A stretch of DNA of 64,000 nucleotides, taken from Bacillota bacterium. GTDB taxonomy: Bacteria; Bacillota; UBA994; UBA5500. Below the pieces are notes generated by a model. It did not search any database and was not told the origin of the DNA. It was given only the letters and a program-made list of their open reading frames with translations. A program made the translations under genes and the position numbers. The DNA lies in contig JAAYHE010000003.1 of NCBI GenBank assembly GCA_012735505.1, positions 1-64,000 on the forward strand, given 5' to 3'. This document shows positions 1,439-41,699 of this stretch, in pieces; the stretch's first letter is position 1, and each line of letters opens with the position of its first letter.

Positions 1439-2056
1439 GTGCCGAAGCCCACCTTTTTTAATTTGCCAGCTGATAAGCGGGAGCATATCTTTAATTGTGC
1501 TTTAAGGGAATTTGCCGAGCATCCTTACGAACAAGCTTCGCTGACCGAGATTGTCAACGCGGCAGGTATCGCCAAAGGTAGTATGTATCAATATTTCGCA
1601 GACAAAAAGGACCTATATAAGTACGTAGTGCAAACGGTCTATCAACATAAACGGAGTTTCTTACAGCCGGTCTGGGATAAAGCTGGTGAAATCGAGTTTT
1701 TTGAGTTGCTTTCCTTGTACTACCGCCGGTCTTGGCGCTTTGCTCGCCAGTTTCCTTACGAACATCGGGTTACCGTCAACTTTTGGGATAGCCGCGATGA
1801 GGCTGTGAGGGCTGAAATATTGCGGGAGAGGGAAATTCGCAATGTCGAGTTTAGCGGTTTGTTAGAGCATGGGAGCCGGGCAGGGGTGATTGCGGCCGAA
1901 GTTGACCAAGAGGCAGCATGGTTTGTTTATCACGCTGTGGGCAGGGCATTGATCGACAATTTTCTTGAACAAGATGTCAGTGCAGAAGAACATGAGGTCT
2001 TTATTGATTCGGTTTTAGCCATCTTAGAGTGGGGACTCAGGTCGCGAAAGGGGTAA
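1439..2056 (+). CDS. TetR/AcrR family transcriptional regulator
   Basis: N-terminal HTH: ALREFAEHPYEQASLTEIVNAAGIAKGSMYQYFADKKDLYKYV; GTG start with RBS AGGAGGTGAGG. Confidence 0.9.
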   Translation: MPKPTFFNLPADKREHIFNCALREFAEHPYEQASLTEIVNAAGIAKGSMYQYFADKKDLYKYVVQTVYQHKRSFLQPVWDKAGEIEFFELLSLYYRRSWRFARQFPYEHRVTVNFWDSRDEAVRAEILREREIRNVEFSGLLEHGSRAGVIAAEVDQEAAWFVYHAVGRALIDNFLEQDVSAEEHEVFIDSVLAILEWGLRSRKG

Positions 2057-37241: not shown

Positions 37242-38303
37242 TTACGGAATTAAGAGGTAAACGAGGGCGAAGGTGACGACCGAGACTACCGTTTCTACGC
37301 CAAAACCGACCAGGAAAGGCTTAATGCCGGCGCGCAGGCGGCGAAAGTCGGTAGACAGGCCAACTCCGGCGAAGGTAATCATAAATAACCATTTGCTGGC
37401 GTTATTAAGCACCGAAGCTTGTGCAGGCGTGATGAAACCAATCGTCGCCAGCAAAGAGAAGGCTAGAAAGCCGATGAGGAACTTGGGCAAGCGGCTCCAG
37501 AGGAAAGCAGCTTTATTTTGTACTTCGCCTGTAATGCCCTTGCGCGCATAATGCAAGGCCATGAGGAGCACTACCACACCCATAACAGCATTACGAGACA
37601 ATTTTACCACCGTGGCAATATTGCCGGCTGCTTCCGAAAACGCGAAACCGGTAGCTACTGCCTCGGCAGTGTTATCGATAGATAATCCTGTCCAGTAACC
37701 AAAAGCGGTGTCGCTCAGGCCTATAAGGCGTCCGAGAAAGGGATAAACAAAGAGCATGATGGCACCGAACAGCAGAATCGTAGCAATTGCGTAGGTAGCA
37801 TCATCCTCCTCCGCCTCGATGGCACTAGTGGTGCTGATGATGGCAGAAACGCCGCAAACCCCAATACCAACTCCTAGCAAACTCGCGAGCTTTTCCTTCA
37901 GCCCAAATATCTTCCCCAGATAGGCTGCCGTCAAGATAGCCACGCTGATCTCCACAACTACCATGAGGATACCGCTGCCCCCGATAGAGAACACTTCTTG
38001 CAGCGCCAACCTCGCCCCTAGGCACACAATCCCGATCTTCATCCACAAATCATAAGTAGCAACACCGGCAGCAAAATACGCCGGTAGATTAAAGGCGTTG
38101 CGTACTACCATGCCAATGGCGATGGCAAACAAAACGTATTCGCTGTGCGGTATGTAGCTGGCAACAATTTTACCCGCATAGCCCACGACCAGCATGAGAA
38201 TTATCCCTGGCACGTAGTGCCAAGTTGCCGTGGCAAGACGGCTGATGCTAGGTAATACTGCCTGAGACGCACTCGTCGCCGTATTTAATACCTTATCTTG
38301 CAA
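37242..38303 (-). CDS. YeiH/UPF0324 family putative sulfate/sulfite exporter
   Basis: YVLFAIAIGMVVRNAFNLP; GSGILMVVVEISVAI; GVGICGVSAIISTTSAIEAEEDDATYAIATILLFG; TTG at 38303 with RBS GGGGGGAT preferred over 38339. Confidence 0.88.
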   Translation of the reverse strand: MQDKVLNTATSASQAVLPSISRLATATWHYVPGIILMLVVGYAGKIVASYIPHSEYVLFAIAIGMVVRNAFNLPAYFAAGVATYDLWMKIGIVCLGARLALQEVFSIGGSGILMVVVEISVAILTAAYLGKIFGLKEKLASLLGVGIGVCGVSAIISTTSAIEAEEDDATYAIATILLFGAIMLFVYPFLGRLIGLSDTAFGYWTGLSIDNTAEAVATGFAFSEAAGNIATVVKLSRNAVMGVVVLLMALHYARKGITGEVQNKAAFLWSRLPKFLIGFLAFSLLATIGFITPAQASVLNNASKWLFMITFAGVGLSTDFRRLRAGIKPFLVGFGVETVVSVVTFALVYLLIP

Positions 38304-38332
38304 TTGAATCCCCCCGAGTCTCTCACCTTGAC

Positions 38333-38437
38333 TTACCAAGGCAACTTGGTGATCAGTCCGGCCTTAACAACCAACATGAAGGCGGTGGCCGCAATGACTG
38401 CCCACCAGTCTTTAGAAATTTTAGTCCACCAAGCCAC
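38333..38437 (-). CDS. Small (34 aa) single-TM protein MAWWTKISKDWWAVIAATAFMLVVKAGLITKLPW, not in supplied ORF track
   Basis: GTG start, RBS GGGAGGT 8 nt upstream, hydrophobic segment, overlaps upstream stop by 17 nt, ends 29 nt before the YeiH start. Confidence 0.7.
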   Translation of the reverse strand: MAWWTKISKDWWAVIAATAFMLVVKAGLITKLPW

Positions 38438-39296
38438 CGTCGCCTACCTCCCAAGCAGGTCTTACTAGGTTTTTCGCTGTTAACGCTGCGAAAGAAAGCT
38501 GGAGGGTGTCCCCGCGCAGTCCGCAACGCAATGCCTCTACTGCCAGAACCTCGTCCGGTGCGATGTTGCCTAGATTTACATTAGGCCCGAAGCGTTTAAT
38601 CAAGCTCACTTGCTGGCTTTTCAAGGGAGCTTCCCAAAGCAGGGCATCTAGGTAGTTAAGGCCATGCACTAATTCTTCTACTTCCCGTACTTTCACCTTG
38701 CCTTCGCTATCAAAAATACCTACCCCTTTGCCCGACTCTCGCCCTTCGATAACAACTTTGTCGGCCCCGTGCTCCAAATCGTCCATAATAATCTGTTGCA
38801 TTTGGGGAATCGGAATGTGGGTACCGTCCTTTTTGCCTACCTCGGTAATAACCTTAAAACCAGCATCTTTGGCCATGCCGATACTGCGGCGCCGTTCAGG
38901 AGCACTAAGGGAAATCGTGCCATCGGAAATCTCTATGCCGCTAAACCCTAATTCTCGGGCCTGTCGCAAATAGGCAGGCAGTTGGTTGTGTAAAATGGCG
39001 ATCTCGCACAAGGTGCCGCCAGGATAAACATCGACCCCATAAAAGCGAATTAACCTAATCTTCTCCCGCAGTAGGGCTTCCGGGTACAAGGCGGAAGTGC
39101 CAAAAGTGAGTTTAATAATGTCGATATAATCGCCCGCTAACTCCAGCAGATCTTTGGTTTGACTTAAGCCTAGTCCTTTGTCTAATAGCATGGTACAACC
39201 TGTGCGGCGGGGTTTAGTGCTATGTCCCGACAGCGGAAACTGGGGAAAGGTGTTTTGCCAGGCCCGCTTCTGACTATAGATAGCCACATGTTTCAC
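38421..39296 (-). CDS. Phosphosulfolactate synthase-like protein (ComA/YitD family)
   Basis: DKGLGLSQTKDLLELAGDYIDIIKLTFGTSALYP; YPGGTLCEIAI; GFSGIEISDGTISL; VITEVGKKDG; VIIEGRESG-type motif VVIEGRESGKGVGIFD. Confidence 0.88.
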   Translation of the reverse strand: MKHVAIYSQKRAWQNTFPQFPLSGHSTKPRRTGCTMLLDKGLGLSQTKDLLELAGDYIDIIKLTFGTSALYPEALLREKIRLIRFYGVDVYPGGTLCEIAILHNQLPAYLRQARELGFSGIEISDGTISLSAPERRRSIGMAKDAGFKVITEVGKKDGTHIPIPQMQQIIMDDLEHGADKVVIEGRESGKGVGIFDSEGKVKVREVEELVHGLNYLDALLWEAPLKSQQVSLIKRFGPNVNLGNIAPDEVLAVEALRCGLRGDTLQLSFAALTAKNLVRPAWEVGDGGLVD

Positions 39297-41462: not shown

Positions 41463-41699
41463 CTATTGTGGCTGCTGCTGGTTAGCCAACGACTGCTCAG
41501 CCATGGCGATCATCTTACGAACCATGTGACCACCGATAGCGCCGGTGTCACGGGTCGTCATGGTGCCCCAGTAACCGTCAGCCGGTACCTGGATGCCTAG
41601 CTCGTTGGCCACTTCATACTTGAACTGGTCGAGAGCCTTCTTAGCGCTAGGAACGACAGGAGTGTTGCTTGAAGAAGAACCTAATGCCATCTGCGTCAC
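41463..41699 (-). CDS. Alpha/beta-type small acid-soluble spore protein
   Basis: ALDQFKYEVANELGIQVPADGYWGTMTTRDTGAIGGHMVRKMIAMAEQ. Confidence 0.95.
   Translation of the reverse strand: MTQMALGSSSSNTPVVPSAKKALDQFKYEVANELGIQVPADGYWGTMTTRDTGAIGGHMVRKMIAMAEQSLANQQQPQ

Follow-up and report, generated by a model that had tools for sequence, protein, structure and literature searches.

We report that a 34-codon open reading frame in the window (the whole stretch of 64,000 nucleotides analyzed here, positions 1 to 64,000 of contig JAAYHE010000003.1 from a Bacillota bacterium) is a real gene, most probably encoding a single-pass membrane subunit of the adjacent YeiH/PSE transporter; the whole of the mechanism proposed below is likewise likely. 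We infer the translation of the peptide, its binding to the exporter, its role in transport, and the substrate. The features concerned are the following:

38421..39296, minus strand: phosphosulfolactate synthase of the comA type (TIGR03849, E 3e-102), heading a putative three-gene operon
38446..38452, minus strand: ribosome-binding site GGGAGGT, 8 nt upstream of the GTG at 38437
38333..38437, minus strand: gene for a predicted 34-aa single-helix membrane protein, GTG start at 38437, TAA stop at 38333
38333..38339, minus strand: TTGGTAA, possible stop/start overlap between the small gene and the exporter (ATGGTAA in relatives)
37242..38339, minus strand: YeiH/PF03601 exporter (PF03601, E 5e-72), start at TTG 38339 or TTG 38303

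The small frame encodes (V/M)AWWTKISKDWWAVIAATAFMLVVKAGLITKLPW, which is laid out as an N-terminal flank (TKISKD), a helix (WWAVIAATAFMLVVKAGLI), and a C-terminal LPW. Its coordinates, its ribosome-binding site with 8-nt spacing, and its overlap of 17 nt with the comA frame (comA stop at 38421) had all been proposed in the initial annotation and were confirmed on the sequence, and 29 nt separate the frame from the TTG at 38303, as given there. At the 18 other loci compared, the GGGAGGT site is matched in the alignment by GGGAGGTGA/GGAGGTGA or a variant close to it. Profile searches assigned the peptide to no Pfam family at E ≤ 1 and to no NCBIfam family; 14 homologues matched no NCBIfam family at E ≤ 5 and gave, against Pfam, two weak matches to unrelated families. 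Because homologues occur in other genera, dN/dS is 0.18, and the place before YeiH is invariant, the frame goes beyond what chance would produce, and on this comparative footing it is a genuine conserved gene that has gone unannotated.

Conservation of the separate gene was traced at several scales, all within one phylum, to which our claims are limited. Among 60 related genomes searched, homologues of the peptide were found in G002, G003, and G033 (E 1e-8 to 9e-8), and a profile search of 399 genomes of the phylum returned two kinds of match (homologues in other genera at E 1e-19), namely short frames (31-57 aa) and longer frames (~440-495 aa) matched at their N-termini. The loci parsed from this phylum-wide search and from a later class-level search comprise 35 homologues with a gene of their own, spread over 12 families, and all of them (35/35) lie directly upstream of a PF03601 gene; the search for the peptide ahead of YeiH in relatives, proposed in the initial annotation, thus gave a positive result. 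The peptides end in Pro-Trp-stop in 33 of the 35 cases, the exceptions ending in VP (L006) and SW (L184). No short ORF ending in PW was found upstream of any of 94 YeiH genes outside the group, a set that includes second YeiH copies from genomes that also have a helix-type exporter. Estimates of dN/dS in two subgroups of separate genes (0.18, bootstrap 0.10-0.30, and 0.19, bootstrap 0.11-0.31) indicate purifying selection on the small protein in both. Weak peptide matches lacking a YeiH gene (L005, L007, L008, L010-L012, L063, L068, L070, and L072) were dropped as chance.

The exporter of the window matches PF03601 over nearly its full length (E 5e-72, model positions 1-303 of 304) and TIGR00698 at E 5e-36, with 124.6 bits against a cut-off of 232.6, a profile of scores that places it in the PF03601 family and outside the strict YeiH subfamily TIGR00698. 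A sequence search of the PDB with this exporter found no relative. Its start is best judged from the seven loci among the window's closest relatives (G002, G003, G033, L027, L031, L032, and L033) in which the small gene's final codons contain the exporter ATG (ATGGTAA, in the context ccATGGtaa). Since the window has ccTTGGtaa at the same point, the homologous start is probably TTG 38339, with a 7-nt overlap with the end of the small gene; TTG 38303 is a possible alternative. In the window's own genome we also observed a 66-aa frame (L026; G000 contig 32, 9113-9238) that matches only the C-terminal end of PF03601 and is either a truncated second exporter copy or a contig-edge fragment.

In a tree of 137 exporters, those bearing the helix (34 separate-type and 9 fused-type) form one group, with support of 99 when the long-branched, helix-less L158, an unsure member, is included and of 76-87 for the clean partition without any helix-less exporter. 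The remaining helix-less exporters fall outside the group, among them second YeiH copies in G128, G124, G161, G211, and G123. Three lineages make up the group: one of 27 separate types, one of 4 separate and 9 fused types, and one of 3 separate types. Each of the three deep lineages has separate genes, whereas fusions are confined to one; on a tentative root, the separate gene is therefore probably ancestral and the fused form derived, and the simplest reading of the tree is that fusion occurred once or twice within one lineage. The idea of a separate subunit, put forward in the initial annotation as a natural split, is supported by strict adjacency, by restriction to a single clade, and by fusion; the direction of evolution is probably the reverse of the one it implied, and the number of helices changes as described below. 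Within the first lineage, every separate peptide examined carries a lysine some three quarters down the helix (VK.G/VK.Q; K25 in the window), which none in the second lineage has. A divergent third small-protein lineage (L186, L187, and L188, family f143; DDWLAFLLG...LPFLPW) precedes a divergent YeiH.

The same helix is found at the N-terminus of nine long YeiH proteins, where it carries the motif EDWWAVW..L...I..VP (L064 begins LEDWWAVWMGFILIFLAASGVITKVPSIAKW). After it come another extra hydrophobic helix, a short loop containing 1-3 Lys/Arg, and core TM1. Alignment of the peptide with these N-termini, a check suggested at the outset, was positive: a profile of the separate peptides matched L059, L060, L062, L064-L067, and others at E 1e-4 to 1e-2, and a wider profile reached E values down to 2e-7. 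In the published scheme, PSE_1 has 9 helices and PSE_2 has 11, corresponding to PSE_1 plus two N-terminal helices (PMC8396727), and the long YeiH proteins are this 11-helix PSE_2 form. The original suggestion that some YeiH-family exporters carry an extra N-terminal helix accordingly holds for the helix itself and not for its number, which is two (PMC8396727). No extra helix was found on the exporter of the window or on other separate-type exporters, whose chains begin with core TM1.

Counts of charged residues offer an account of this difference. Since the separate peptides mostly carry 1-4 Lys/Arg ahead of the helix and 0-1 behind it, they should be oriented N-in/C-out, and the charge pattern of exporter TM1 indicates that it is also N-in. 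Were the two fused directly, the exporter would consequently begin on the wrong membrane face, a topological problem that the second PSE_2 helix would solve; the peptide ends outside and the exporter starts inside, so a fused form would call for an extra connector helix. We propose that the N-terminus of the peptide, rich in Lys/Arg and followed by Asp/Glu-Trp, stays in the cytoplasm, that one helix spans the membrane, and that Pro-Trp closes the chain at the outer face. The peptide would pack on the N-terminal (scaffold) part of the exporter, at the place occupied by the fused helix in long YeiH proteins, and would be needed to assemble, stabilize, or gate this branch of YeiH. It would be kept as a separate gene because an outward-ending helix cannot be joined directly to an inward-starting exporter, and the lineage that fused the two would for this reason also have the connector helix.

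Helix placement was not taken from structure prediction. An AlphaFold2 model of the small protein of the relative L041 joined to its exporter, which shares its frame there (TAG read as Gly, 35-row alignment), was too weak for this, with a mean pLDDT of 68.8 and 51-62 in the helix, and a Foldseek search of the model against the PDB gave CitS as its best match (E 0.06, not significant). A further observation comes from G446 (L185, match at locus 1501-1599, minus strand), in which an in-frame TGA interrupts the small gene at the conserved D-W site and no YeiH is left downstream; the sister genomes G445 and G447 keep the small gene and YeiH intact. This is one case of shared decay of the small gene and YeiH.

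We found no description of a small YeiH subunit in the open literature, though several systems resemble this one in part. PSE_2 (PF03601, TC 2.A.98; PMC8396727) has the same D/E-W...VP N-terminal helix before the same core, but its helix lies within the exporter chain together with a second extra helix, whereas the window encodes the helix as a 34-aa protein of its own and lacks the second one. Separate auxiliary subunits in the reentrant-helix-reentrant fold type are provided by LrgA/LrgB and LysA/LysB, with a smaller membrane subunit, fused in some organisms and on its own in many, acting with a core of that fold type; no separate PSE-family subunit is described in the same source (PMC8396727). 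LrgA has 4 helices and LysA 3, whereas the present peptide has 1 and shows no detectable relationship to either, and neither the peptide nor its 14 homologues matched the LrgA/LysA Pfam models (PF03788, PF03956). YeiH of E. coli and Salmonella (PSE_1, 9 helices) shares the PF03601 core, but the E. coli gene was checked and has no small helix gene upstream, and its product falls outside the helix clade in the tree. AcrZ, KdpF, and CydX are likewise small (30-50 residues), with one helix each, and either share a locus with a larger membrane complex or act on one. We know of no sequence relation between them and the present peptide. Their partners also differ, and the fusions described above concern YeiH specifically.

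AcrZ acting on AcrB and MgtS acting on MgtA are models for a different role, that of a small membrane regulator whose transient binding tunes the stability or activity of the exporter without being a structural part of it. A single helix of ~30-40 residues in an operon with its target fits such a role, as does the fact that other YeiH members, like Salmonella yeiH (PMC12880088), function without the peptide. We nevertheless regard regulation of this kind as unlikely: virtually all exporters of its clade come with the peptide, nine of them in fused form, a pattern more typical of a constitutive subunit.

Less probable by some distance is that only the act of translating the frame matters, with the frame serving as a leader peptide or as a translational coupler that brings ribosomes to where the exporter starts. 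The ATGGTAA stop/start overlap in the window's closest relatives is what such coupling would look like, but many relatives have instead a spacer and a separate GGAGG site before the exporter ATG, the amino acids themselves are under selection (dN/dS ~0.19), and the peptide is fused to the exporter elsewhere. We give least credence, and very little of it, to an artefact or chance ORF, that is, a sequencing frameshift or what is left, as a pseudogene, of a long exporter's N-terminus. Long exporters with the same N-terminus do exist (L024 and others), but a long exporter would leave a second extra helix, which the separate-type exporters lack, and there are ~35 independent intact short frames with conserved ribosome sites. 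Across these genes TAA, TAG, and TGA are all used as stops, three frame relations to the exporter occur, and the exporter often has its own GGAGG site in the spacer; comparison of the ~35 independent genes thus excludes a sequencing frameshift or read-through, which the initial annotation had named as one outcome that would overturn it. Constitutive association with the exporter, as a subunit, is the reading that we retain.

The neighboring comA gene is a secondary link. It adjoins the small gene in families f19 and f82 and in most members of the window's group, is not adjacent in L052, L055-L058, L061, and L006, where the small gene persists, and is absent from the genome of G249, where the small gene is present. 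As a main partner comA was rejected, since the small gene persists without an adjacent comA and YeiH is always there. Two single-contig genomes (L173 and L174) have comA and comB side by side, ~3-4 kb from the small gene and YeiH, suggesting an older shared cluster, and a comB-type phosphatase was found in 10 of 10 genomes tested. The comA enzyme combines sulfite and phosphoenolpyruvate into phosphosulfolactate. We also observed an alpha/beta-type small acid-soluble spore protein gene 2-3 kb away (window 41463-41699, minus strand; PF00269, E 8e-30); the organism or a recent ancestor makes spores. Spores of B. subtilis are rich in sulfolactate (PMC517825), and spore formation could connect comA with the sulfolactate of spores. 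In vitro, Salmonella owes its sulfite resistance mainly to YeiH (PMC12880088). From the consumption of sulfite by comA and the sulfite resistance conferred by enterobacterial YeiH, we infer that the cargo is likely sulfite or a related sulfonate such as sulfolactate.

We lean, by a small measure, toward the broader view that this branch of YeiH/PSE is an obligate two-protein transporter in which the one-helix scaffold subunit is ancestral, and that PSE_2 arose from it by fusion together with the connector helix that fusion needed. The YeiH family is widespread, with members in 185 of the 399 sampled genomes of the phylum, and its tie to sulfite resistance is recent. If the branch does need an unannotated protein of 30-40 residues, then heterologous expression, structural work, and gene naming for this branch have missed a component, and the system would offer a clear example from nature of a membrane subunit that topology seems to hinder from being fused.
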